A stretch of 64,000 bases of DNA from positions 2,489,501 through 2,553,500 of the forward strand of contig NC_008609.1 of the NCBI RefSeq assembly GCF_000015045.1, written 5' to 3'. The translations under genes were made by a program, and so were the position numbers. The notes beneath the pieces are model-generated. The model was given only the letters and a program-made list of their open reading frames with translations, was not told the origin of the DNA and ran no database searches. Positions 32,624 through 58,846 of the stretch are shown here, piece by piece; within the stretch, counting starts at the first letter, position 1, and every line of letters starts with the position of its first letter. The DNA comes from Pelobacter propionicus DSM 2379. GTDB lineage: Bacteria > Desulfobacterota > Desulfuromonadia > Geobacterales > Pseudopelobacteraceae.

Positions 32624-32636
32624 GATCAATCCCATC

Positions 32637-32829
32637 CGTAGGGGCACCCCCATGTGGGTGCCCGGTTTTTGTTTCCATGTGGGTGCCCGGTTATTGCCCC
32701 ATGTGGGTGCCCGGTTTTGTCTTCGTGTGGTGACCCGGTTATTATATCCGCGATGATACGAAAAAACGGGGCAAACACATAGGGTGACCTCATAGCCACA
32801 TAGGGCGGCCACACGGGGCCGCCCCTACG
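32637..32829. repeat. REP-like element 1 (REPIN type), between acpH and the RAYT gene
   Basis: Begins CGTAGGGGCACC with hairpin GGGCACC...GGTGCCC and ends in hairpin GGGCGGCC...GGCCGCCC followed by CCTACG, so the outer 9 bases (CGTAGGGGC/GCCCCTACG) are inverted. Inside are four copies of a 24-25-base unit with core GTGGGTGCCCGG (first at 32654, 32679 and 32703; the fourth is degenerate). Its right end contributes the RAYT stop codon. Confidence 0.8.
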
Positions 32830-33421
32830 GGGGATATTGGTCGTCGTTATGCCATTGCGCGGGATTGGCATCGATGTATTCCCGGATGGCGGCTAATTCC
32901 GCATCGTTGCGGATAATCCGTTCGTAATAATTGCGCTGCCACAGACGGCCGGCGAACGGGGACCACCCCGATTGTTTCACCCCTCTGATATACGCGTTGG
33001 TCGTCATGGTCTTGAACCAATCCATCACATCCCCCACCGTAGGGGCACCCCCATGTCGGTGCCCGGTTTTGCCTTCGTGCCGGTGCCCGGTTTTGCCCCC
33101 GTATGGGTATCCGGCGCACCCTTCCCCACACGGAGGCATGTTATGTTCCGGCACGACAATAGTGACGATCCCGTGAAAATGATTGGGCATGACCACGTAT
33201 CCCTCCAGTGCCATTTGCGGGAACCGGTCCGGAATTTTCAACCACCACCCCTCCACCATCCGCCCCGCGTCGTTCAACAGCATGCGCTCCTCGGCGATTT
33301 CGCCCAACAGGCATGCCCGCCCCTGCACGCACACGGTAACAAAATACGCGCCAATGGAGGAATAATCGTAACTCTTCAGGCGAATGGAACGACGATGATG
33401 AATATCCGGGTTATAGGTCAT
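32825..33421 (-). CDS. REP-associated tyrosine transposase (RAYT, Y1_Tnp family)
   Basis: 198 residues from ATG 33421 (GGAGGGGCA upstream). HHRRSIRLKSYDYSSIGAYFVTVCVQGR is the usual RAYT start. YVVMPNHFHGIVTI is the HUH-type metal motif (HFH), and WQRNYYERIIRNDAEL carries the catalytic Tyr. RAYTs cut and join single-stranded REP hairpins. Here REP-like elements lie on both sides and one half-element lies inside the gene, coding for an in-frame stretch rich in Gly, His and Lys (about residues 102-128). The last codon and stop (CCG TAG) lie in element 1. Whether the enzyme is still active with the insertion is open. Confidence 0.85.
   Translation of the reverse strand: MTYNPDIHHRRSIRLKSYDYSSIGAYFVTVCVQGRACLLGEIAEERMLLNDAGRMVEGWWLKIPDRFPQMALEGYVVMPNHFHGIVTIVVPEHNMPPCGEGCAGYPYGGKTGHRHEGKTGHRHGGAPTVGDVMDWFKTMTTNAYIRGVKQSGWSPFAGRLWQRNYYERIIRNDAELAAIREYIDANPAQWHNDDQYPP
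33038..33115. repeat. REP-like half element inside the RAYT coding sequence
   Basis: Starts CGTAGGGGCACC like elements 1 and 3 and has three 24-25-base units with cores CGGTGCCCGG, CGGTGCCCGG and GGGTATCCGG, but no GGCCGCCCCTACG end. It keeps the RAYT frame open and encodes the repeated KTGHRH peptide. Confidence 0.7.
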
Positions 33422-33430
33422 TGCCCCTCC

Positions 33431-33457
33431 ATAGGGGCGAACCTTGCGTTCGTCCCC
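33431..33457. repeat. REP hairpin just upstream of the RAYT start
   Basis: ATAGGGGCGAAC, loop CTTGC, GTTCGTCCCC: the same AGGGGC-hairpin form as the other REP ends, ten bases before the RAYT start codon. Confidence 0.6.
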
Positions 33458-33483
33458 CCATCCCAATTCCAGGTTACCATTCC

Positions 33484-34841
<1,358 letters not shown>

Positions 34842-34867
34842 GTTCTCGTCTCCGAATACATAAAATA

Positions 34868-35009
34868 CGTAGGGGTACCCCCATGTGGGTGCCCGGTTTT
34901 TGTTTCCATGTGAGTGCCCGGTTTTTGTTCGAAAAGTGCGTATGGGGAACAGCGGGCGGCCATGTGGGGAGGGGCCCCATGGGGGGCGGCCACATGGGGC
35001 CGCCCCTAC
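34868..35009. repeat. REP-like element 4, between cas1 and the CRISPR array
   Basis: CGTAGGGGTACC hairpin at the left, two GTGGGTGCCCGG-type units (the second is GTGAGTGCCCGG), and a terminal hairpin GGGCGGCCACATGGGGCCGCC plus CCTAC. It is the shortest complete copy and lies 32 bases from the last CRISPR repeat. Confidence 0.75.
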
Positions 35010-35041
35010 TGGCCCTTGGTCATCTCGTTCTCAAGCCCCCG

Positions 35042-37693
35042 CGGTTCATCCCCGCGCATGCGGGGAACACAACAACGTCAATTCCTAGCCCGGCTGCAAC
35101 ATCGGTTCATCCCCGCGCATGCGGGGAACACCCCCGGCTCAACCTGGGGAACCCTGGAAGCGACGGTTCATCCCCGCGCATGCGGGGAACACAAACCTTT
35201 AACCAAAAGAAAGAAAGAAACCGCCGGTTCATCCCCGCGCATGCGGGGAACACCCTGGTCGCCTCGGTGCCAATTCCGGAAACGTCGGTTCATCCCCGCG
35301 CATGCGGGGAACACCTGCTGCGTATGCTGTCGCCATGTTTGCCATCCGGTTCATCCCCGCGCATGCGGGGAACACTATAATCCTAGCAATTTCTCCTTTA
35401 AATTTACCGGTTCATCCCCGCGCATGCGGGGAACACGGAGGACGGTGCCTCGGCTAAGCCGTTGACCCCGGTTCATCCCCGCGCATGCGGGGAACACCTG
35501 ACAGAAGAGTTCTCAACGAGAGAGGACAGCGGTTCATCCCCGCGCATGCGGGGAACACTCGCGAATCATCGCCATTGTAGGAGAATACTGCGGTTCATCC
35601 CCGCGCATGCGGGGAACACGTATGTGGCTATGGGATCGCCCGTAACATCCTCGGTTCATCCCCGCGCATGCGGGGAACACGCAAACGCCCATTTGATAGC
35701 CGCCGCACCTGACGGTTCATCCCCGCGCATGCGGGGAACACGTTTGAAATCGCGCAAATCATGCCTGAAAGACCGGTTCATCCCCGCGCATGCGGGGAAC
35801 ACTTCCAGCAACCGCTTGATCACGAAAACCTCACCGGTTCATCCCCGCGCATGCGGGGAACACCTCTCCAGCATCCCCCGGACACACGCGGCGGACGGTT
35901 CATCCCCGCGCATGCGGGGAACACCCACGGACACACCAGGAACTAAAAAATATTCGTACTTCATCCCCGCGCATGCGGGGAACACCCCCTGTATGGGGCG
36001 GGCGTAGTTTTCCAGCACGGTTCATCCCCGCGCATGCGGGGAACACGGTGAGCGGTTGACCGATTTTCGGAGCACCCGCGGTTCATCCCCGCGCATGCGG
36101 GGAACACCCTTGCGGTCAATGGTTTCTACGTTGTTTGGTCGGTTCATCCCCGCGCATGCGGGGAACACTTCGCTATACCCGTGCCGAGCGCAACATCCAC
36201 CGGTTCATCCCCGCGCATGCGGGGAACACTCGGTCCAGAGATCGGTGCCGGTGAGGGTGATCGGTTCATCCCCGCGCATGCGGGGAACACAGAAACGCGA
36301 TCAGTCAACCCAACTAAAACACCGGTTCATCCCCGCGCATGCGGGGAACACTCTGGTTCTTGCTTCATTCCATGATCAGGCGTCGGTTCATCCCCGCGCA
36401 TGCGGGGAACACGTGTCCATCAGGTCGGCCAGGTCCTGACCCAGCGGTTCATCCCCGCGCATGCGGGGAACACATGTCGTCCTTGGTGGTGTCGCCGTGG
36501 AAGACCGGTTCATCCCCGCGCATGCGGGGAACACGTTACGTTGCGACAACGCCGACTATCAACAATCGGTTCATCCCCGCGCATGCGGGGAACACTTCAT
36601 GTTATATCGATTCGTTATATGGATTGGCGGTTCATCCCCGCGCATGCGGGGAACACTCTCAAGGCCAATGGCGCTGCCATCTCGCGTTCGGTTCATCCCC
36701 GCGCATGCGGGGAACACATTTACTGACTGGTGCCGCTCTGTGGGCGGGACGGTTCATCCCCGCGCATGCGGGGAACACTGTGTAGCAGACAGTAGGATAT
36801 CAGGGATGGACGGTTCATCCCCGCGCATGCGGGGAACACTTACATGAATACATCATTATTACCTACAGGCGCGGTTCATCCCCGCGCATGCGGGGAACAC
36901 TTTGAACTGGTAGCCGCCATCGTCGCCGCCAACGGTTCATCCCCGCGCATGCGGGGAACACAATGGTCCGATTTCGCCAACTCTGGATCGGTCCGGTTCA
37001 TCCCCGCGCATGCGGGGAACACGCTCAACTTTTCGGGGACATGCAGGTGGGCAACGGTTCATCCCCGCGCATGCGGGGAACACTAAAAACTGCCGTTGGG
37101 TTTTCCTTCCGAGTTCGGTTCATCCCCGCGCATGCGGGGAACACTGGTTACGTGTTACAAAGCCGATGTGTTTTTACGGTTCATCCCCGCGCATGCGGGG
37201 AACACAGTACCGTATAAATAGCCCAAATAATAACACCCGGTTCATCCCCGCGCATGCGGGGAACACCCTTGAGCAGGTGTTCGGCCTCCATGATGTCCGG
37301 GTTCATCCCCGCGCATGCGGGGAACACGACCATCGCCGCGCGCCTGGGGGTAAAGCCGGGGGTTCATCCCCGCGCATGCGGGGAACACAGAGTAAGCCCG
37401 TATTTCAGACGTAGTGCTTTCGGTTCATCCCCGCGCATGCGGGGAACACGAACTTCCTGATGGTGGTCGGTTTCGTCTCCGAGGTTCATCCCCGCGCATG
37501 CGGGGAACACTCGATCTGTGGCGCTGTCTCCTGACCAATGGGCGGTTCATCCCCGCGCATGCGGGGAACACCCAGAGTAGGCCCACGAGGTGCGTTTTTG
37601 CTACGGTTCATCCCCGCGCATGCGGGGAACACAGATACCCACCATTATAGGGAGTAGTCCATTGCGGTTCATCCCCGCGCATGCGGGGAACAC
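35042..37693 (-). CRISPR. Type I-E CRISPR array, 44 repeats and 43 spacers
   Basis: A 29-base repeat, on the transcribed (minus) strand GTGTTCCCCGCGCATGCG...GGGGATGAACCG, recurs with an exact period of 61 bases, so all 43 spacers are 32 bases. I checked each repeat start from 35042 to 37665. All repeats are identical except the copy at 35957 (last three transcribed bases GTA, not CCG) and those at 37299, 37360 and 37482, which differ only in the last transcribed base. Repeat sequence and leader put the newest spacers at the right end. crRNAs would be cut by Cas6e 3' of the CCCCGCGCATGCGGGG hairpin. Confidence 0.99.
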
Positions 37694-37897
37694 ACTTCCT
37701 CTATTTCCTCAAAATAATTGAGCTATTTCATTCATTAAACAGCCACCAACTTTTCCCCCTCTAAACGGCCCTTGATGAGCAACAAAACTCGACAGAAAGA
37801 CCCCATACTTCAAAGGAAGGTCAAAGAAGGATTTCATACCCACCGGACGAGCATCAGACCAACAGCCAAAGCCTTTTGCCGGACCGGTTCAGATGAG
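37694..37897 (-). promoter_or_regulatory. CRISPR leader, adjacent to cas6e
   Basis: 204 bases between the cas6e stop and the first repeat, AT-rich next to the array. On the transcribed strand it holds AAAAGTTGGTGG (plus-strand 37743-37754), which matches the AAAGTTGGTAGA motif of the E. coli type I-E leader, and a palindrome CTCAAAATAATTGAG at 37708-37722, 15 bases from the first repeat, where IHF bends the leader in E. coli. No strong promoter hexamers are evident, so read-through from the cas operon is possible. Confidence 0.75.
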
Positions 37898-49355: not shown

Positions 49356-51884
49356 TCATGTTCTCGGCTTGGCCCTGCGGGTGGGGGGGGCGCTCCAGGG
49401 GTCGTCCGGCCAGGGATGCTTGGGGTAGCGCCCCTTCATCTCTTTTTTGACCTGATGATAGGAGCCGTCCCAGAAACCCTTCAGATCGCGGGTCACCTGC
49501 AGCGGCCGGCCGGCCGGCGACAGCAGGTGCAGCAGCAGTTCCACCCTCCCCCGGCAGATGGATGGCGTACGCTCCAGACCGAACAGCTCCTGCAGCTTCA
49601 CCGCCAGCACCGGCGTCTCCCCCTGGCAGTAGTCCAGCCTGATGCGGGAGCCGCTGGGCACGACCAGGTGGGTGGGAGCCAGCTCGTCCAGGGAGGCCCG
49701 CTGGCGGTACTCCAGGCGATTCAGCAGGATTGCCGCCAGGTCAAGCTCTCCCAGCTGCCGGGCGCCGCGCACACCGACCAGGGCCGGGGCCAACCACTCC
49801 TCCAGGCTGTCCAAAAGCGCCCCGTCCGAGCAGTCGGGCCAGCCATCAGCCGGGAACTGGCGGCGCACAAGCTCCATGCGGGCCTGGAGCTGCAGGAAGC
49901 GCTCATTGCGGTCCAGCAGCCCCATACCGGACGAGCGCAGCGCCTCCACGAGCGCCGGCAGGCTCTGTTCCGGGGTGGCTACGAAGGGGGAGGATGCCAG
50001 CACCAACGCTCCCAGGCACTCCTCCCGCATGGCCACCACCCTCCCCTCCCGGCTGTCCCAGAGCACCCGCTCCCGCCGCTCCCTGCGCTCCCCCAGCTCC
50101 TGTAGCAAAAGCTCCTCCGTTATCTCCTGACAGAGGTGGATCAGCCCCTCCCCCCCTTCGCCGCCATCCACGGAAACAGCCACCAGCAGGGCGCTCCTCC
50201 CCGCCATCCCCGGCACGGCCAGCCGGGCCCCCCTGCCGTTGGCCAGCAGGTAGCGCCCCCCCTCACCCTCCCGCTGCATGGCCATCCGGTCGGGATAGGC
50301 CGCCAGCAAGAGCCGGCCGATGCCGTCCGGGTCGCTCCATCCCCCGCCTTCCCGGGAGGAGCGTCCCATCAGCCGCTCCAGCTGGCGGTGCACCCGCTCC
50401 ACATTTTCCAGGCTGCCCCTGTCCGTGTCGCCAGCAAAGCCATCGCTGCCCCGGAAGCGGCGCAAAAGCTCCAGCCGGTCGTGCAGGTCGGCGGGAGTCC
50501 CCTTGCCCTGCCCCTGCCGGGGGGAGCGCCTGATGATGTCCCGCTCGGAGAGCAGGGCGGCCAGGGCGCAGCCCAGGGGCACAAGATCCAGCTCGCGGGA
50601 GCGCTCCAGCAGGCGGGACAGACGGGGGTGCAGCGGCAGGCGGGCCATGGACCTCCCCAGGGGGGTAATCCGCCCGCAGGAATCCAGCGCCCCCAGATGC
50701 GCCAGGAGCTGACGGGCAACCGCCAGGGAAGCGGCCGGAGGCGGGTCGAGCCAGGCCAGTTGTGCCGGATCGGCCACTCCCCAGGCCGCCAGCTCCAGCA
50801 CCAACGGGGAGAGGTCGCTCTCCAGCATCTCCGGCGGGGTATGGGGGGTCATGGCGTCGAAGCTGTGGCGGCTGAAGAGGCGATAGCAGATCCCCTCGCT
50901 CACGCGCCCGGCCCGGCCTGCCCGCTGGATGGCCGAGGCCCGCGATTCGCGCACCGTCACCAGCCGGTTCATGCCGCTGGCCGGGTCATGGCGCTGTCTG
51001 CGGGACAGGCCGCTGTCGATCACCACCCGCACCCCCTCGATGGTCAGGCTGGTCTCGGCGATGCTGGTGGCCAGCACCACCCTGCGCCCCCTCCCCGGCT
51101 GGATGGCCGCCTGCTGGCGGGCAAAGGGGAGGTCGCCGTACAGGGGATGGACGGTGACAGCGCTCCCCTCCAGCCCGGACTGATCCAAAAGCGAGGCACA
51201 GGAGCGGATTTCGCCGGCACCGGGGAGAAAGGCCAGGATGTCCCCCTCGGTCTCGGCCAGGACACGCCGGATGGCCGCCGCCATGCGCGGGGCCAGGCGG
51301 TCACGGGAATGATCCTCCAGATAGATTTCCCGCACCGGGAACGAGCGCCCCTGGGAGGAGATCAGGGGGGCATCGCCCATCAGCCGGCCCAGCGCCCGGC
51401 ACTCCAGGGTGGCGGACATGACCAGGATCTTCAGATCGTCCCGCACCTGGCTCTGCAGGTCAAGGCACAGCGCCAGACCCAGGTCGGCCTGGATGCTCCG
51501 CTCGTGGAACTCGTCCAGGATGACCATGGCCACCCCCTCCAGCAGCGGGTCGCCCTGGATGCGGCGGGTCAGGATTCCTTCGGTTACCACCTCGATGCGG
51601 GTCTTTGGGGAGACGCGGCTGTCGAAGCGGATGGAGTATCCCACCGTCCCTCCCGGCTCCTCACCCAGGCAGGCGGCCATCCAGCGGGCAGCGGAGACGG
51701 CAGCCAGGCGGCGCGGCTCCAGCATGACGATCCTCCCCGCTTGGGGGGGGATGATCTCCAGCAGCGCCAGCGGCACGCGGGTGGTCTTGCCCGCTCCCGG
51801 TGGGGCGTGCAGCAGGACATTGGGGTTTTCGGCTACGGTGGTCAGGAGTCGGGGAAGGATCTGGTCGATGGGAAGCGGTTTCAT
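49356..51884 (-). CDS. hrpB: ATP-dependent helicase HrpB
   Basis: DEAH-box RNA helicase-like protein, 842 residues. Walker A HAPPGAGKTTRVPLAL, DEFH in MVILDEFHERSIQADL, VMSATLE, ATSIAETSLTIEGVRVVIDSG and QRAGRAGRV. The C-terminal HrpB domain contains RIRLDYCQGETPVLAVKLQELFG and ends near GRYPKHPWPDDP. The biological role of HrpB is poorly known; RNA processing is usually proposed. It is convergent with the Lon-like gene. Confidence 0.95.
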   Translation of the reverse strand: MKPLPIDQILPRLLTTVAENPNVLLHAPPGAGKTTRVPLALLEIIPPQAGRIVMLEPRRLAAVSAARWMAACLGEEPGGTVGYSIRFDSRVSPKTRIEVVTEGILTRRIQGDPLLEGVAMVILDEFHERSIQADLGLALCLDLQSQVRDDLKILVMSATLECRALGRLMGDAPLISSQGRSFPVREIYLEDHSRDRLAPRMAAAIRRVLAETEGDILAFLPGAGEIRSCASLLDQSGLEGSAVTVHPLYGDLPFARQQAAIQPGRGRRVVLATSIAETSLTIEGVRVVIDSGLSRRQRHDPASGMNRLVTVRESRASAIQRAGRAGRVSEGICYRLFSRHSFDAMTPHTPPEMLESDLSPLVLELAAWGVADPAQLAWLDPPPAASLAVARQLLAHLGALDSCGRITPLGRSMARLPLHPRLSRLLERSRELDLVPLGCALAALLSERDIIRRSPRQGQGKGTPADLHDRLELLRRFRGSDGFAGDTDRGSLENVERVHRQLERLMGRSSREGGGWSDPDGIGRLLLAAYPDRMAMQREGEGGRYLLANGRGARLAVPGMAGRSALLVAVSVDGGEGGEGLIHLCQEITEELLLQELGERRERRERVLWDSREGRVVAMREECLGALVLASSPFVATPEQSLPALVEALRSSGMGLLDRNERFLQLQARMELVRRQFPADGWPDCSDGALLDSLEEWLAPALVGVRGARQLGELDLAAILLNRLEYRQRASLDELAPTHLVVPSGSRIRLDYCQGETPVLAVKLQELFGLERTPSICRGRVELLLHLLSPAGRPLQVTRDLKGFWDGSYHQVKKEMKGRYPKHPWPDDPWSAPPTRRAKPRT

Positions 51885-51977
51885 GGCTGGCAGGATACTG
51901 TCCGGCAGGGGGATCTGTCCACTGGTTTCAGGGGTTCACCTCCTTGGCGGCTCTGGTCGCGGCTATGTCTGCATTCA

Positions 51978-52157
51978 GCAGTCGGGGACTGCCGGAGAGA
52001 GCGCATCAGGGCTATTTCGTCGTACTACCCGGCGAAATGAAGCGTTGACAGCCGCTACTGTCTGAGCCCGCAGGGCGAGTTTATCGACTGTAGCGCAATG
52101 AGTCAAGGTAAGTACAGAAATAGCCCGTCCGCGCGAACGCAGGCAGTCCCCAACTGC
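51978..52157. repeat. Long-hairpin element, copy A
   Basis: 180 bases that fold back almost end to end. GCAGTCGGGGACTGCC (51978-51993) pairs with 52142-52157, GGGCTATTT (52009-52017) with 52118-52126, and GTACT (52022-52026) with 52111-52115. The tip is GCCC/GGGC at 52066-52076. It lies upstream of hrpB and downstream of an MFS gene. A second copy is at 56825-57009. No reading frame is supported inside it. Confidence 0.8.
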
Positions 52158-52167
52158 CGTCTCCAGT

Positions 52168-53367
52168 TCACGACGCCGGAGCCCCCCGTTGCTCCCGGAA
52201 GCTCCGCAGGAACAGCAGGCCCAGCGGCGGCAGGGCGATCAGGAAGGCGTACATCAAGAGGTGGAAGGTCCGCTGGACCCCCACGCTATCGGCCAGCCTC
52301 CCCACATAGGGGCCGACGCAGGCGAAGCAGAGCCGAAACGTCAGCGACTGCAGCGACAGCAGCGCCGCCCGGTTGGCGGAGGGGGTCTCCCTCTGCACGT
52401 GGCTGAGCATCATCGGCCCCCGCAACCCCCGCATGCAGGTCAGCAGATAGTAGAACAGGAAGCCGAACAGCCCTCCCATCACCCCCAGGCCGAAATAGCC
52501 GGCAACGATCAGGGCGATGAAAAGCAGGGTCATCCCGCGGTCGCTCAGGTAATGGTGCGTGCGATGGCTGGCCATGGCGGAGAGCGCCACCATCAGGTTT
52601 GCGCCGGCCCAGACCGGGCCGAACCAGGCCAGGGGAACGCCGCTCTGGCGCATGTAGGGCTGAATCAGCCAGACCGGGAAGAAGGAGGCCAGCCCCAGCA
52701 GCGTATTGAAGATGATGGTGTAGCGCAGGCGCGGATTGTCCCAGAAGGCATAGCGGGCGGTATGTAGCGCCTCGGCCAGATGGGAGCGGGCCTGGATGGC
52801 GCTATCCCGCGGGGTCTCCACCATTCCCCTGGTCACCACGAGGGCAGCGATCCAGACAGCCACCTGCAGGATGAAGGGGGAGAGCGGGAAAGCGGCGTAG
52901 AGCATGCCGGCGAAGATGGCGCCCAGGGCCTCGCCGCTCTGGGAAAAGCCGGTCACCCGCCCCTCGCAGCGGGCGTAGAGCGCCTCGTTCCCCTCCAGTT
53001 TGAGAGTCTCGTAGAGCAGGGCGCTGTCCGACCCGCTGATGAACGAGAGCGAAATCCCCAGCAGGATCTCGGCCAGAAGCACGTCGCCGAAGGAGTCGGC
53101 CACCGTGTACATGCCCCAGCCCAGGATTCCCAGGAGCGAGGCAAAGGAGAGCGCTGTCCGGTAGCCCAGGCGGTCGCTGATATAGCCGGAGGGGTACTCC
53201 AGGAGCACCGTGGCAATGGAGAAGATGCTCTGCAAGAGCAGGATCTGGGTCAGGCTCAGGCCTATATGGTCCTTCCAGAACAGGGTGATGATGGCCATGG
53301 GAAAGAGCATCATCTGCAGGAAGGAGAAAGCGTACAGTTTCCGTATGTTACCGTGGAGGTTACTCAT
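52168..53367 (-). CDS. Major facilitator superfamily transporter
   Basis: 399 residues, about twelve membrane helices, beginning MSNLHGNIRKLYAFSFLQMMLFPMAIITLFWKDHIGLSLTQ. The MFS loop between helices 2 and 3 is SGYISDRLGYRTAL. SGSDSALLYETLKLEGNEALYARCEGR matches a subgroup annotated as MFS permeases related to fluoroquinolone/tetracycline exporters. AGAGGTCGA precedes the ATG. It follows the chorismate-mutase gene by 20 bases, so they probably share a transcript. The substrate is unknown. Confidence 0.85.
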   Translation of the reverse strand: MSNLHGNIRKLYAFSFLQMMLFPMAIITLFWKDHIGLSLTQILLLQSIFSIATVLLEYPSGYISDRLGYRTALSFASLLGILGWGMYTVADSFGDVLLAEILLGISLSFISGSDSALLYETLKLEGNEALYARCEGRVTGFSQSGEALGAIFAGMLYAAFPLSPFILQVAVWIAALVVTRGMVETPRDSAIQARSHLAEALHTARYAFWDNPRLRYTIIFNTLLGLASFFPVWLIQPYMRQSGVPLAWFGPVWAGANLMVALSAMASHRTHHYLSDRGMTLLFIALIVAGYFGLGVMGGLFGFLFYYLLTCMRGLRGPMMLSHVQRETPSANRAALLSLQSLTFRLCFACVGPYVGRLADSVGVQRTFHLLMYAFLIALPPLGLLFLRSFREQRGAPAS

Positions 53368-53387
53368 TCGACCTCTAAAAAAACAAT

Positions 53388-53711
53388 TCAGGCCTTTCGG
53401 CCAGAAGGCTCACCGCCGTGAAGGGCCGCGTACTCGGCAGTTTCCAGGTCGATATGGGCATCGATCAGTTCCCGGTAGATCCGCTCCACAAGATCGGGGC
53501 AGGCGCCGCATTCACGGGCCCTGGCAACCACGTTGGAGACCACCTCCTCGATGCGCTCTTCAATCCTAACCTCATCGGCGCTGTTCTTGAAGCGGGGCGC
53601 CTGCTTCACGTAGCCGATCCGCTCCGCCAGCAGTTCGACGATCTGGCGGTCGATGCGGTCGATGTTGGCGCGTACCTCGGCCAGAGAGGCGCACACTGAA
53701 ACTGGTTTCAT
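53388..53711 (-). CDS. AroQ-type chorismate mutase / isochorismate-pyruvate-lyase-like protein
   Basis: 107 residues from ATG 53711 (AAGGAG upstream). SLAEVRANIDRIDRQIVELLAERIGYVKQAPRFKNSADEV is the AroQ helical fold with the conserved Arg and Lys of the active site (RANIDRID; RIGYVKQA). The family converts chorismate to prephenate, while PchB-type members release pyruvate from isochorismate. The FKNS segment is like PchB, so both remain possible. No siderophore genes are adjacent, only an MFS carrier. Confidence 0.82.
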   Translation of the reverse strand: MKPVSVCASLAEVRANIDRIDRQIVELLAERIGYVKQAPRFKNSADEVRIEERIEEVVSNVVARARECGACPDLVERIYRELIDAHIDLETAEYAALHGGEPSGRKA

Positions 53712-53924
53712 TACAAGCTCCTTTTTGGAATCAACGGTAGTACGCCAGGGCATGAACCGGCGCCTTCTCCCCTCACCCGTCTTCTTCGCACGTATTCCGT
53801 TATGCTGCCTTACCCAACCTGCATCGCGCATAGTTACCAATCAGCCATCAACTCATCCTGATGCAATTCCGCCCAAGCCAGAACCAGCCTTGCCTGCCTT
53901 CTGGGAAGATCGCCCTCGACAATC

Positions 53925-54401
53925 TCACATTGGCTTCCGCCGCATGTGAATAAGCGCAACCCGATTGCCATTCTTATCCTGCCGTTCTTCGATGGCATAA
54001 GGTTCAAATCCCAACTTTGCATACAGGATCAGGCCGACGACGTTTTGATTAAAGCAGGACACCGTAACTTCAATGGCACCATGCTTTGAGAACCCAAGGC
54101 TAACCATTTGCTCGACAAGATAGCTTCCGACCCCCTGCCCCCGGACGATCGGAGAAACAATAACGTTTCCTATAGAGCAACCTTTCGCACCCCAGCGGTA
54201 AAAATTGGCAAACGCGACAACCTGACCTTCCAATTCAATTACCGTGCTGTCCGAACGTTGAGAGATTGAATTCTGCAGCTGCCATGGAGCCAAGGGAAAT
54301 GCCGCTTTGGGAAAAAGGAAAAACAGCTCTTCTTCGCTTTGTGGAAAACCACAAACAACAGGAATATCACTATTTTCAACCGGACGATGAGTAAGCAGCA
54401 T
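53925..54401 (-). CDS. GNAT-family N-acetyltransferase
   Basis: 158 residues, MLLTHRPVENSDIPVVCGFPQSEEELFFLFPKAAFPL. The acetyl-CoA loop is IVSPIVRGQGVGSYLVEQMV, with a later beta-alpha (SCFNQNVVGLILYAKLGFEPYAIEERQ). GGAGG lies ten bases before the ATG. AT content is higher than in its neighbours, which may indicate acquisition. The substrate is unknown. It lies between aldehyde dehydrogenase and chorismate mutase; the 213-base gap downstream of it shows no further gene. Confidence 0.85.
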   Translation of the reverse strand: MLLTHRPVENSDIPVVCGFPQSEEELFFLFPKAAFPLAPWQLQNSISQRSDSTVIELEGQVVAFANFYRWGAKGCSIGNVIVSPIVRGQGVGSYLVEQMVSLGFSKHGAIEVTVSCFNQNVVGLILYAKLGFEPYAIEERQDKNGNRVALIHMRRKPM

Positions 54402-54447
54402 ACCGTTTGAACCTCCACAACGAAACAGGTAATCCGAAAAGCTCTGT

Positions 54448-55872
54448 TCACCCCTTGAGCTGGATCGACTTGATCTCCTGGAACTCCTCCAGGCCGTATC
54501 TGCCCAGCTCCCGGCCGTTGCCGGACTGCCTGTAGCCGCCAAAGGGTGCTAGGATGTTGAAGGGGGCGCCGTTGATATCCACCTGACCGGTGCGCATGCG
54601 CCGGGCAAAGGCCAGAGCGCGCCCCTCGTCTGCGGACCAGACTCCGCCGGCCAGGCCGTAGATACTGGAGTTAGCAATCCTGAACGCAACCTCCTCGTCG
54701 CTATAGGGGATGATGCAGAGCACCGGGCCGAAGATCTCCTCTTGGGCGATGGTCATCTCTGCTCTCACCCGGCCGAAGATGGTGGGGGAGACGTAGAACC
54801 CCTTCGTAAGCCCGGCCGGCGGCTCGACGCCACCCAGCAGCAGTTCCGCCCCCTCGGCGATGCCGGAGCGGATGTACTCCCACACCCGCTCCCGCTGACT
54901 GGCCGACACCAGCGGCCCCAGGCGGCACTTGTCGCCAAAGGGATCGGAGGGGACGAAGCTCTTGCCCAGCTCCACCGCCAGGGAGACCGCCTGCTCGTAC
55001 AGACTCTCCGGCACCAGCAGGCGGGTGTGGGCGCTGCACGTCTGGCCCGAGTTGAGCAGACAGGCGCCTAGGCTCCCCTTGACCGCCGCAGGCAGGTCGG
55101 CGTCGTCCAGGATCACCGAGGCGGACTTGCCCCCCAGCTCCAGGGCGACCTTCTTGACGGTCCCGGCCGCCAGAACGGAGAGGCGCCTCCCCACGCTGGT
55201 GGAGCCGGTGAAGGAGACCATGTCCACATCGGGATGGGAGGCCAACGCCTCGCCGATAGTTGCGCCGCGGCCGCTGACCAGGTTGAACACGCCGGGGGGC
55301 AGGCCGGCTTTCTCCACGATCTCGGCCAGAATGAAGGAGGAGAGGGGCGCCTCGGAGCTGGGCTTGACCACCACGCAGCAGCCGGCCGCCAGGGCCGGGG
55401 CAACCTTGGCAACGATCTGGTGCAGGGGGTAGTTCCAGGGGGTGATGCAGGCCACCACCCCCACCGGCTCGCGCACGATCAGCGAGTTGGCGATGCGCTC
55501 ATCCTCCCGCTGCTCCGCAGCCAGGGAGGCGTAGCTCCCCATGACCGCCACCGGCAGGCCGGCCTGGATACGCAGGGAGAACTTGAGCGGCATGCCCACC
55601 TCGGCGGTGACGATGCGGGCGATCTCCTCGCTCCGCTCCACCAGCCCCTGGTGCAGCTTTGTCAGACATTCCGCCCGTTCAGCCGGACTTGTGGCAGACC
55701 AGGCGTCAAAGGCGGCCCTGGCGGCGGCCACGGCCCTGTCCACATCATTCACCGTTGCGGAGGGAACCCGGCCGATGACCTCTTCGCTGGCAGCGCCGAC
55801 CACCTGGATGAAGGAGGGATCGCTTGATGCCGCCCACTGACCATTTATGTACAGCTTGTCGTACTCATGCAT
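54448..55872 (-). CDS. Aldehyde dehydrogenase (NAD(P)-dependent)
   Basis: 474 residues from ATG 55872 (GGAG eight bases upstream; GTG 55881 is the alternative). [25 protein letters not shown] is the cofactor-binding block, [12 protein letters not shown] the Rossmann glycine loop, and [18 protein letters not shown] carries the general-base Glu. The catalytic Cys is in [16 protein letters not shown], and ITVA-type [13 protein letters not shown] follows. The substrate cannot be judged; members of this group oxidise varied aliphatic or aromatic aldehydes. Confidence 0.93.
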
Positions 55873-55940
55873 GTCGTACACTCCAATGAGGTTTTGGTTC
55901 GATCAATCTCGCTGTGCCGGATTCGTGGAAGCTCCCACCC

Positions 55941-56151
55941 GAACCCCCATCCCCTTTAACCTGAAAATGCAGTTGTTCACGCAAAGCCACGAAGTTCACG
56001 AAGAAAAACAGATGGATAGACAAAACAGCTGAAGCACCTGGTTGGTGAAGCGCCACTGTTTGACGACTGTTTGATTTCTTTGCGTCTTCGCGCCTTTGCG
56101 TGAGATGAATTAGCGTTTTCAGGTTCAAGGGTCAGGGTGGGGATGGGGTTC
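55941..56151. repeat. About 210-bp inverted-repeat (MITE-like) element
   Basis: Fills most of the 345-base gap between aldehyde dehydrogenase and nitroreductase. Nested inverted arms: GAACCCCCATCCCC (55941-55954) against GGGGATGGGGTTC (56139-56151); AACCTGAAAA at about 55958 against TTTTCAGGTT at about 56116-56125; TTCACGCAAAG...GAAG at about 55976 against CTTCGCGCCTTTGCGTGA at about 56087-56104. The CACGCAAAGGCGCGAAGACGC-like core resembles a dispersed motif I recall from environmental deltaproteobacterial genomes. No coding capacity. Confidence 0.65.
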
Positions 56152-56217
56152 ATCAGCACCCCATCCCTGTCCATCCACCCTGGGGAGACGTACCACAACC
56201 CTGACGGGACCGCCCTG

Positions 56218-56790
56218 TTACAGGAAGTTGATCTCCACCGGCTTCCGCTTGATCGGGTTTTCGGACTGTTCCCGCTTCACCGCCGGATAGCCGATGATCA
56301 GCGGCGCAACCAGTTCATACTCCTCCGGCATCCCCAGCTCCTTCTTGACTTCCGGCTCGTCCAGTACGTTGTGGGCAAAGCCGATCCAGCAGCAGCCCAG
56401 CCCCTGCTCCTCGGCCAGCAGGTTTATGTTCTGGGCCACCATGCTGCAGTCGTACACCTGCCAGTGGGCTTTACTGTCGCCGTAGATGACGATCAGTGCC
56501 GGCGCGTTGTAGAAGATGTTGAACTCGGGGTTATTCATCCACTTCTCGTACTGCCGGATAAAGGGGGCGTCCTCCATGTTGGCCAGCCACTTTTCCTTGG
56601 CGGTGTCGGAGAGGCGCTTCAGGCGTTCCCTATCGAAAATAACGACGAAGCGCCAGGGCTGGTTATTGGAACCGCTGGGGGCCCAGACCGCTGTGTTGAT
56701 CAGCGCCTCGATGGTCTCCCGGGGCAGCGCTTCTGCGCTGAATTTCCTGCAGGAACTGCGTCGCTTCATGATGGTGGTCAGACTGTCCAT
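56218..56790 (-). CDS. Nitroreductase-family flavoprotein
   Basis: 190 residues with AAGGAGG before the ATG. MKRRSSCRKFSAEALPRETIEALINTAVWAPSGSNNQPWRFVV is the FMN-binding nitroreductase signature (RRSxRxF; APSGxNxQPW). GLGCCWIGFAHNVLDEPEVKKELGMPEEYELVAPLIIGYP closes the fold. Such dimeric enzymes reduce nitro groups, quinones or enones with NAD(P)H. No neighbour suggests the substrate. Confidence 0.92.
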   Translation of the reverse strand: MDSLTTIMKRRSSCRKFSAEALPRETIEALINTAVWAPSGSNNQPWRFVVIFDRERLKRLSDTAKEKWLANMEDAPFIRQYEKWMNNPEFNIFYNAPALIVIYGDSKAHWQVYDCSMVAQNINLLAEEQGLGCCWIGFAHNVLDEPEVKKELGMPEEYELVAPLIIGYPAVKREQSENPIKRKPVEINFL

Positions 56791-56824
56791 GGCTTTGCCT
56801 CCTTGGGGTTGTTTATCCTGGAAA

Positions 56825-57009
56825 CGGCAGTTGGGGGATGCCGGAGAAAGCGCATCAGGGCTCTTTCGTCGTACTTCCCGGCGAGATGAAGCGTCAACAG
56901 CCGATACTGTCTGAAGCCCGCAGGCTCAAGTTTATCGGCTGTAGCGCAATGAGTCGTGGAAGTACAGAAAGAGCCCGTCCGCGCGAACGCAGGCAGCCCC
57001 CAACTGCCG
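56825..57009. repeat. Long-hairpin element, copy B
   Basis: 185 bases with the same order as copy A at 51978. CGGCAGTTGGGGGATGCC (56825-56842) pairs with 56992-57009 with one mismatch, GGGCTCTTT (56858-56866) with 56968-56976, GTACTTCC (56871-56878) with 56958-56965, and ACAGCCGATA (56897-56906) with TATCGGCTGT (56933-56942). The tip is AGCC/GGCT. It lies upstream of the nitroreductase and downstream of the THUMP methyltransferase. Confidence 0.8.
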
Positions 57010-57059
57010 CATGGTGTACAAACATCCTTCGACGGTGGATGAGAACCGCCGTTTCAGGC

Positions 57060-58241
57060 TCAGTACAGCTCGTACTTGAGCAGGCGGCACTCGATCGGGC
57101 CGTTATAGAGCACAAACCGCCGCGACGCCTTCAGGCCGATGTACTTGGCCAGCTCCAGGTTGCCGGTAAGCACATAGCCGGTCCACCCCTGGCAGCGCTG
57201 TTTGAGGATGTCGCCGATCTGGCAGTAGAGCTCCTTCAGCTCATCCTCCTCCCCCATGCGTTTGCCGTAGGGAGGATTGATGATTACCACCCCACCCTCC
57301 CCTTCCGGCCTGAACTGCTCCAGGGAGCTGTGGAAGAAGTGCACCTGCCCCTCGAAGCCTGCCGCCGCCGCGTTGCGCCGGGCAATGGAAAGGGCGCGGC
57401 TGTCGCTGTCGTAGCCGCTGACCAGCCCCACCGGGAGCTGTCGGATGCCGCTCTCCGCTTCGGCCTGGATCCCCTTCCAGAGGCGGGGGTCGAAATCCTG
57501 CCAGCGCTGGAATCCGAATGAGCGGTTGCGCCCCGGCGGAACGCGGGCGGCCATGAGCGCCGCCTCGATGGGGATGGTGCCCGAGCCGCACATGGGGTCG
57601 GCCAGGGCTACGTTGCCGTCCCAGCCGGTGAGCGCGATGATGGCGGCGGCCAGGGTCTCGCGCAGGGGCGCCTCGTTGCGCTCCAGACGGTAGCCGCGAC
57701 GGTCCAGGGCGTCCCCCGAGCTGTCCAGGCTGACCGTGCAGACATTCTTCACCAAGTGGATATTGACCCGCACGTCCGGGGAGGCCGTATCCACGTTGGG
57801 ACGACTGCCGCATGCCTCACGGATGCGGTCCACGATGGCATCCTTGGTCTTCAGCGCCACAAAACCGGAATGGGTCAGGGCCGAGTCCCGCAGGGAGCAG
57901 TCCACCGCCAGGGTCATGGCGGGTGTGATCATCTCCTGCCAGGGGATGGCATGCACGCCATCGTACAGCTCTGCCGGCGAGGAGCAGGGAAACCCGGCCA
58001 GCCTGACCAGCACCCGGCTGGCGCTGCGCAGCCAAAGATTGGCGCGGTACAGACCGGCCCGGTTGGTGCGGAACGAGACCCCGCCCCGCCCTGCCTGCGC
58101 CCCCTCGATGCCCAGCAGGCGCAGTTCGGCCGCGGTCACGTCCTCGCTGCCGCGCGGCACGGCGGCAAAGCACTCCATCTCCCTGTCCGGCTTCGGCTCC
58201 GGGCGTGGCGCCCGTCTGAGGATATGCTTCTTCTCGGTCAT
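57060..58241 (-). CDS. THUMP-domain RNA methyltransferase (RlmL/Trm14-like)
   Basis: 393 residues from ATG 58241 (GGGGGAACG upstream; overlaps the coaE stop, ATGA). An N-terminal ferredoxin-like/THUMP region (CFAAVPRGSEDVTAAELRLLG; about residues 18-165) binds RNA. The methyltransferase has LADPMCGSGTIPIEAALMAAR and the catalytic VVIINPPYGKRMGE, the N6-adenine/N2-guanine NPPY motif. This is the YpsC/RlmL N-terminal class, which makes N2-methylguanosine in 23S rRNA in E. coli; the exact base here is unknown. Confidence 0.88.
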   Translation of the reverse strand: MTEKKHILRRAPRPEPKPDREMECFAAVPRGSEDVTAAELRLLGIEGAQAGRGGVSFRTNRAGLYRANLWLRSASRVLVRLAGFPCSSPAELYDGVHAIPWQEMITPAMTLAVDCSLRDSALTHSGFVALKTKDAIVDRIREACGSRPNVDTASPDVRVNIHLVKNVCTVSLDSSGDALDRRGYRLERNEAPLRETLAAAIIALTGWDGNVALADPMCGSGTIPIEAALMAARVPPGRNRSFGFQRWQDFDPRLWKGIQAEAESGIRQLPVGLVSGYDSDSRALSIARRNAAAAGFEGQVHFFHSSLEQFRPEGEGGVVIINPPYGKRMGEEDELKELYCQIGDILKQRCQGWTGYVLTGNLELAKYIGLKASRRFVLYNGPIECRLLKYELY

Positions 58242-58846
58242 GCTCGTTCCCCCATTTCCCGTTCCCATATGTCCGCCACCAGCCGTTCCGTCTCCTCGGG
58301 CGTACCGCTGTTGTCGATAATCACGCGGCCATGGCGCTCCTTCTCGGCCAGCGGCATCTGGCTGTCAATGATCTTGCAGGCATCCTCCCGGCTGATGCCG
58401 TCACGTTCCATCAAGCGCTGGATCTGTATCTCGGGCCTCAGGGTCACCACCCAGATCTCGTCCACCCGGCTGGTGACTCCCGCCTCGATCAGCAGCGGCG
58501 CCATGTAGAACACGATGCGCTCCCCCCGGCAAGCCGCGGCTGCGATGCGCTCCTCCGCCAGCCTCCTGATCTCAGGATGCACGATCCCTTCCAGCTGGCG
58601 ACGGTTCACGTCGTTGCCGAAGACCAGCGAACGCATCTTCCGGCGGTCCAGATTGCCGTCCGGCAGCAGCACACCGGCGCCAAACAGATCAACGATCCGC
58701 TCCAGGGCCGGACTCCCCGGATGAACCGCCAGGCGCGACAGTTCATCGGCATCGATCACCACCGCTCCTCGCTCCATCAGAAAACGGGCCACACTGCTCT
58801 TGCCGGTTGCGATCCCACCGGTCAGGCCCACCACACGGACTCCCAT
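58238..58846 (-). CDS. coaE: Dephospho-CoA kinase
   Basis: Last step of coenzyme A synthesis: phosphorylation of the 3'-hydroxyl of dephospho-CoA. 202 residues. MGVRVVGLTGGIATGKSSVARFL is the P-loop, DADELSR the substrate loop, and VFYMAPLLIEAG and VTLRPEIQIQRLMERDGIS are family blocks. AAGGAGT precedes ATG 58846. It is coupled to the THUMP methyltransferase by a four-base overlap. Confidence 0.95.
   Translation of the reverse strand: MGVRVVGLTGGIATGKSSVARFLMERGAVVIDADELSRLAVHPGSPALERIVDLFGAGVLLPDGNLDRRKMRSLVFGNDVNRRQLEGIVHPEIRRLAEERIAAAACRGERIVFYMAPLLIEAGVTSRVDEIWVVTLRPEIQIQRLMERDGISREDACKIIDSQMPLAEKERHGRVIIDNSGTPEETERLVADIWEREMGERA

Follow-up and report, generated by a model that had tools for sequence, protein, structure and literature searches.

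The 64,000-nucleotide stretch of the Pelobacter propionicus DSM 2379 genome analyzed here (contig NC_008609.1, positions 2,489,501 to 2,553,500; hereafter the window) contains two copies, A and B, of a hairpin element, which an initial annotation made from the sequence alone had described as sharing a multi-stem fold of ~180 bp with compensatory base changes. Both hairpins belong to one repeat family that folds as a single rod of ~180 nt. Their positions had been given correctly (rod A corresponds to G000:C3:2541477-2541658 as a model match in genome coordinates), as had the observation that both lie between co-directional genes, an MFS transporter and an hrpB-type helicase gene in the case of A and an RlmL-like methyltransferase and a nitroreductase-family gene in the case of B, all on the minus strand.

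Each of the two copies is by itself a single long imperfect hairpin, with a z-score of −5.3 for A and −9.9 for B, and equally good folds occurred in 0 of 200 shuffles. The reported change in the middle stem, from A-T in copy A to C-G in copy B, is present, and the tip is paired in both copies, though in a shifted register. The changes described in the terminal stem hold in part: one is compensated (A-T to G-C), while the other is an A.G mismatch in copy B that is unpaired in its fold. Pair changes in two copies alone are weak evidence, however, and it is a covariation test across the whole family that settles the matter.

A DNA search of the genome of the window finds eight near-full copies of the element and many partial ones. 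An alignment was made of copies from the window's genome and from others (32 sequences, reduced to 29 by removing subfamily 2, whose three members were misaligned and were kept out of the model seed), and the covariance model and covariation test by which the initial annotation had proposed to check its claim were then run. Covariation is beyond what is expected by chance. Of the 63 pairs of the rod tested over the 29 aligned copies, 41 are doubly changed, compared to 19.7 in shuffles, 95.0% of the cells are paired (83.6% in shuffles), and the covariation score is 0.370 (0.139 shuffled), falling to only 0.045-0.078 in a control where the partner is slid by 1-3 columns. The stems are separated by conserved, G.A-rich internal loops, in the first of which two Watson-Crick pairs covary (94.8% paired) and are flanked by G.A and A.G pairs that hardly vary (25 to 29 of the 29 copies). 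A kink-turn in the apical loop, judged by eye, is not supported by the spacing. Selection on structure, which the initial annotation had proposed, is strongly supported by the family-wide covariation, the covarying loop pairs and the bias toward G-T over A-C described below. The covariation test does not separate RNA from single-stranded DNA. Rfam 15 recognizes only two tRNAs in the whole window at the gathering score, and at E values up to 10 it returns one irrelevant weak match between positions 51800 and 57200.

Outside the rod, ~9 nt are conserved on each side and are followed by a 5-bp repeat with the consensus NTNAN, according to a comparison of ends and targets in 95 copies. The end consensus, CCTRAAAAC-GGCAG / CTGCC-GAATATAGG, forms terminal inverted repeats. 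Both ends retain at least six of the nine letters in 31 of the 95 copies, and the target duplication is exact in nine and has one mismatch in 12, where 0.4 and 3.7 are expected from pairing the ends of different copies (at most one mismatch, 21 observed vs. 4.1 expected). Duplication of a 5-bp NTNAN target on insertion is shown statistically by these counts. Such 5-bp duplications point to a staggered cut, as made by DDE transposases. The whole element of ~198 bp is short, non-coding, dispersed and multicopy, and the family is a transposon resembling a miniature inverted-repeat transposable element (MITE). A link to transposition had been suggested from the hairpins, and both the duplications and the likeness of the ends to those of IS1380-type elements, considered below, bear this out. 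The features of the two window copies are given in Table 1.

Table 1. Elements A and B and their neighbors in the window; rods A and B are themselves part of the covariance-model seed.
Feature	Position	Strand	Basis
Element A with both 9-nt ends, both decayed	51968..52167	+	Covariance-model match extended 9 nt per side
Structured rod of element A, modelled sense strand	51977..52158	+	178.5 bits, E 1.3e-32
Element B with both 9-nt ends, left intact, right decayed	56817..57017	+	Model match and end comparison
Structured rod of element B	56826..57008	+	186.2 bits, E 3.6e-34
TTTAT left of element B, compatible with NTNAN target	56812..56816	.	Sequence and family rule
MFS transporter gene, stop codon touching element A	52168..53367	-	PF07690
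hrpB-type helicase gene, downstream of element A	49356..51884	-	PF08482, PF24473
RlmL-like methyltransferase gene, upstream of element B	57060..58268	-	PF01170, PF22020, PF02926
Nitroreductase-family gene, downstream of element B	56218..56790	-	PF00881

The left end of element B, CCTGGAAAC, agrees with the family end, and the TTTAT beside it has no matching duplicate at the right. A comparison of the flanks of element A finds its target duplication no longer present. Because the right end of B and both ends of A have decayed, both window copies look old. In the same-genus genome G001 the gene order differs at both insertions and there is no clean empty site.

In the genome of the window the covariance model recognizes 14 full-length copies at 79 bits or more. 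It also matches nine places that score lower, have diverged or are shortened, four of which measure ~60 bp, and a further seven matches are echoes on the opposite strand. Four loci (L161, L162, L159, and L163) are ~60-bp deletion derivatives that keep the terminal stem and have lost the middle of the rod, and five others, from the window's own genome (L149-L153; 116-143 bits), form a second rod subfamily with other stem sequences and with loops that are similar by eye. Of the 141 genomes searched from the order, 28 carry the family; across the class its spread is patchy, with 28 carriers among 277 genomes, every one of them inside that order. Each of four genomes of the order has at least 19 rod matches. 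These searches used stricter filters and scored the best matches, such that weak-matching genomes and copies can be missed. There is no rod in G001 at the threshold of the order search. A pattern search of named genomes gave 52 matches. Of these, 34 come from records labelled Geobacter, Geobacteraceae or Geomobilimonas, and the model confirms every one; the other 18 yield a single weak partial model match (35.2 bits). The cultured Geomobilimonas luticola JCM 17780 (L085) has a rod that the model confirms. None of four viral pattern matches is recognized by the rod model, and collections of phages and plasmids gave just three matches (E 0.6) or none. So far, the family is found only in Geobacter relatives.

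Which strand folds can be read from the G-T and A-C cells of the alignment. Among 69 non-redundant copies (104 rows, less five opposite-strand echoes and then 30 rows at >90% identity) there are 220 G-T and 63 A-C cells, and therefore the sense strand is, as shown statistically, the strand that folds. As events on a tree of 95 copies, the ratio of G-T to A-C is 149:45 at the tips and 21:10 on inner branches (p 0.07). The bias is present in every gene context (all 95 copies), whether the neighboring genes run along the element (107:38), against it (91:26), converge on it (75:18) or diverge from it (27:6), and the orientation of the element relative to genes shows no significant bias (25 sense vs. 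16 antisense, p 0.21, a count that leaves out 35 of the 95 copies which overlap an open reading frame of a crude caller). Because the bias is alike in all contexts and orientation has no significant bias, host messages are probably not where the fold is read out. The same two results speak against a different explanation, that the host keeps the rods in place as 3′ untranslated RNA elements or small RNAs, serving for instance as stability or RNase III sites, which we regard as unlikely. It would account for the upstream stop codon falling within −10 to +12 nt of the end in 19 of the 25 sense co-directional copies, although this closeness may simply follow from the NTNAN target, and MITE-derived small RNAs are known in Coxiella (PMC5896051).

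The pattern of change in recent copies bears directly on when the fold matters. In genome G095 a recent burst has left 36 of 38 fetched rows at least 95% identical to their own consensus (one divergent row of 39 was dropped, and contig ends truncate nine of the 38, some possibly being halves of one copy). Distinct changes in these copies are spread evenly, with 56 at 126 paired columns and 29 at 60 unpaired columns, and the G-T:A-C ratio is 8:11, with 22 other mismatches, which is no bias and is distinct from the ratio at the tree tips (Fisher p 0.002). A second genome with young copies, G067 (mean identity 0.95), has private changes of eight G-T, six A-C, seven other and one double. The initial annotation had held that further copies lacking preserved pairing would refute its claim; pairing is preserved across the family, whereas the changes in the burst copies carry no sign of it. 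This lack of constraint in burst copies is not expected if the host were keeping the rods in place. Taken together, the burst and G067 (16:17) differ from six older genomes (54 G-T vs. 23 A-C among private changes) at the edge of significance (p 0.05), and among the older genomes the ratio is 12:0 in G050 but 13:12 in the genome of the window. All counts of private and shared changes cover fetched copies only. Long private branches may include time while the element still moved, so the counts from old genomes are not decisive.

Orthologous copies give a mixed picture. At an intergenic site common to G048 and G055, where a pair of elements appears inverted, the two matched element pairs each differ by 12 double changes and one single kept, with four or six broken pairs, a result that fits in-place selection, replacement by other copies, or arm-to-arm copying. 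Two opposite-facing adjacent rods at one gene boundary in two species (L213 2322-2684 and L224 1640-2003) are apparently inverted as a pair, and two comparisons with L223 (10 and eight double changes) were set aside as the upstream junction differs. Three other orthologous pairs have 10 one-sided changes that keep pairing, nine that break it and one double change; pairs are broken about as often as they are kept, which would speak against maintenance by the host. The conservation of the element relative to its flanks is mixed over these three pairs, and one orthologous copy is 94.4% identical where its flanks are 86-87% identical, which, like the private G-T excess of the older genomes, would suit retention by the host.

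The paired changes could instead arise mainly by arm-to-arm copying during replication, that is, by template switching within a quasi-palindrome of the same MITE, rather than by selection on the fold. Double changes often exceed single kept ones, as in the 12 to 1 of each of the two elements at the G048/G055 site, inner branches have 170 double changes and 21 G-T, and transversional double changes are common (75 at tips, 80 on inner branches), all of which such copying would explain. Yet template switching should also have repaired the internal loops, where the G.A pairs are near invariant, and it predicts G-T and A-C in equal numbers where 220:63 is seen. We therefore consider this explanation improbable. 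The fold is most likely needed by the element for its multiplication and not by host genes at the individual sites, because the burst copies show no constraint and gene orientation is irrelevant; selection seems to act on propagation.

The nature of the putative mover is suggested by the ends. The ends and target rule of the rod family resemble those of IS1380-type elements of the same order, and on this basis we infer that the rod element is, or once was, mobilized in trans by a transposase of the IS1380 family. Transposases of this family (PF13701, DDE_Tnp_1_4) are above the cut-off in 17 of 141 genomes of the order. One complete Geobacterales insertion sequence (IS) with a PF13701 transposase (79.5 bits) agrees at its two ends with the rod-family end in 14 and 15 of 16 positions, and is flanked by TTTAA on both sides, a 5-bp duplication; the rod differs in carrying no transposase gene. 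Among the 14 IS loci scanned, CC-type ends with a 5-bp duplication were seen at three others (ATTAA twice, ATATA once), in a scan which ranked pairs with a duplication higher and so favored finding one. An IS1380-type element of G064 (L252 1251-2926) lies between apparent groES and groEL genes, named by eye, and is flanked on either side by ATTAA. The rod ends also resemble those of ISEcp1, a member of the IS1380 family with the left inverted repeat CCTAGATTCTACGT and a 5-bp repeat (PMC7864471).

The left end of the rod family is also found on other hairpins. It is present 61 times in genome G086, compared to 19 times for the reversed control, and among 30 of these 61 places that were fetched, 24 have a right end within ~300 nt at up to three mismatches, for which chance alone gives 0.2 per place, and 15 have one at no more than one mismatch, for which chance gives ~0.002 per place. 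An exact 5-bp duplication accompanies 11 of those 24, and the 19 of 30 with a right end at up to two mismatches are 144-185 bp in length. The interiors of the fetched loci are other hairpins, and the rod model matches one of the 30, which is the sole rod copy listed for G086. In view of these counts, the left end and the target rule of the rod family are associated with hairpin MITEs in this order. The G086 loci (L376-L405) have unlike interiors, a common left end and mostly a 5-bp NTNAN target, and so differ from the rod in their interior and right end; some of them have a small apical hairpin in common with the IS1380-type elements L297 and L299, as judged by eye. Of 20 regions fetched from G095 for their end matches in a search for a full-length transposon, 17 hold a rod match, the other three being L321, L324, and L328.

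The initial annotation had allowed that the hairpins might be a known MITE or a REPIN, and a MITE-like element they are, but the REPIN type is not supported. REPINs are hairpin-forming, non-autonomous and dispersed (PMC3116915), and a mobilization of the rod through single-stranded hairpins by a Y1/RAYT transposase would suit its hairpin form and the frequency of PF01797 genes in the group. The target duplication, size and distribution of the rod, however, do not fit. PF01797 is present in 52 of 57 relatives and the rod in 12 of 57 (DNA search, E 0.01), the rod model at E 1 finds nothing in L080 and L075, the regions around two of the window genome's three PF01797 genes, and the 5-bp duplications point to a staggered cut. 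REPINs are not known to have a target duplication. A REPIN-type origin is thus highly improbable.

In the explanation that we favor, and hold to be somewhat probable, A and B are decayed copies of a MITE-like family that is moved in trans by an IS1380-type transposase, and the one-strand fold is most likely for the multiplication of the element. Its ~9-nt ends surround the ~180-nt rod and insertion duplicates 5 bp at NTNAN, and a transposase of the IS1380 family would act, or have acted, in trans. The rod, with its G.A-rich loops, would be needed on one strand for the element's own multiplication, as RNA or single-stranded DNA, such that resident fresh copies would be free to decay while new copies would arise only from copies that still fold. 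It is possible, though rather doubtful, that a transposase-moved DNA element depends for its multiplication on a one-strand fold of the whole interior, with an RNA transcribed from it or a single-stranded DNA rod participating in IS1380-type transposition or protecting it. Such a need could be general to this transposition system, because hairpin MITEs with unlike interiors have the same left end.

Several observations weigh against the favored explanation. With respect to the mover, none of the rod-bearing genomes of the order yielded a PF13701 element whose ends match; G053 and G064, the sole rod-bearing genomes with PF13701 above the cut-off, have IS ends that differ from those of the rod, and neither G086 nor the burst genome G095 has a PF13701 match at E 0.001. 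The end pattern is found six times in 20 IS loci, compared to 1.0 on average over 25 shuffles, which is a modest excess in that two shuffles gave five and seven, and both the ATATA of one IS1380-type element and the duplications printed for ISEcp1 in PMC7864471 are outside the NTNAN rule. With respect to the fold, the end pair c4-d6 does not covary, the burst copies include four double paired changes, the bias toward G-T is retained among private changes of the six older genomes, and private double changes are many in older genomes (17 in G043, 31 in G055, 29 in G048, and 21 in G050), as are the double changes at the G048/G055 site.

Short, dispersed, hairpin-forming repeats are familiar in bacteria, examples being ERIC, Correia, QMITE, and bcr (PMC10969869 and PMC5896051). 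The bcr elements of the Bacillus cereus group are tied to a TTTAT motif (PMC6542083) that fits NTNAN, although the host groups differ and the comparison is by description only. Chunjie, a MITE of G. uraniireducens, is 178-235 bp, has terminal inverted repeats and direct repeats, and is intergenic (PMC10969869); its likeness to the rod and to the G086 repeats is by description only, in size, terminal inverted repeats and direct repeats. Dispersed, partly palindromic “multicopy nucleotide sequences” have been catalogued in Geobacter (PMC2700814, PMC2996986, and PMC3543383), and these are repeats of similar type in the same bacteria, again compared by description. Among the titles listed in a literature search on IS1380 MITEs, Geobacter MITEs and MITEs with structured RNA, none is on the rod family.

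The window holds two further kinds of repeat. At ~35041-37700 there is a large CRISPR-like array with a 29-nt repeat, CGGTTCATCCCCGCGCATGCGGGGAACAC, at 61-bp spacing (43 register copies listed), and ahead of it, at 32634-34929, a ~24-bp tandem unit (CCCCATGTGGGTGCCCGGTT...) is clustered in four places.

The interiors of MITEs are usually regarded as free filler. The unusual part of the rod family is a one-strand, orientation-independent constraint on the interior of a MITE which is absent in fresh copies. The interior is kept as a shaped one-strand molecule across a bacterial order, while fresh copies seem free to decay. If this is confirmed, the covariance model would annotate a repeat of Geobacter relatives that is without an Rfam family, and the question of why many bacterial MITEs are long hairpins would become testable.

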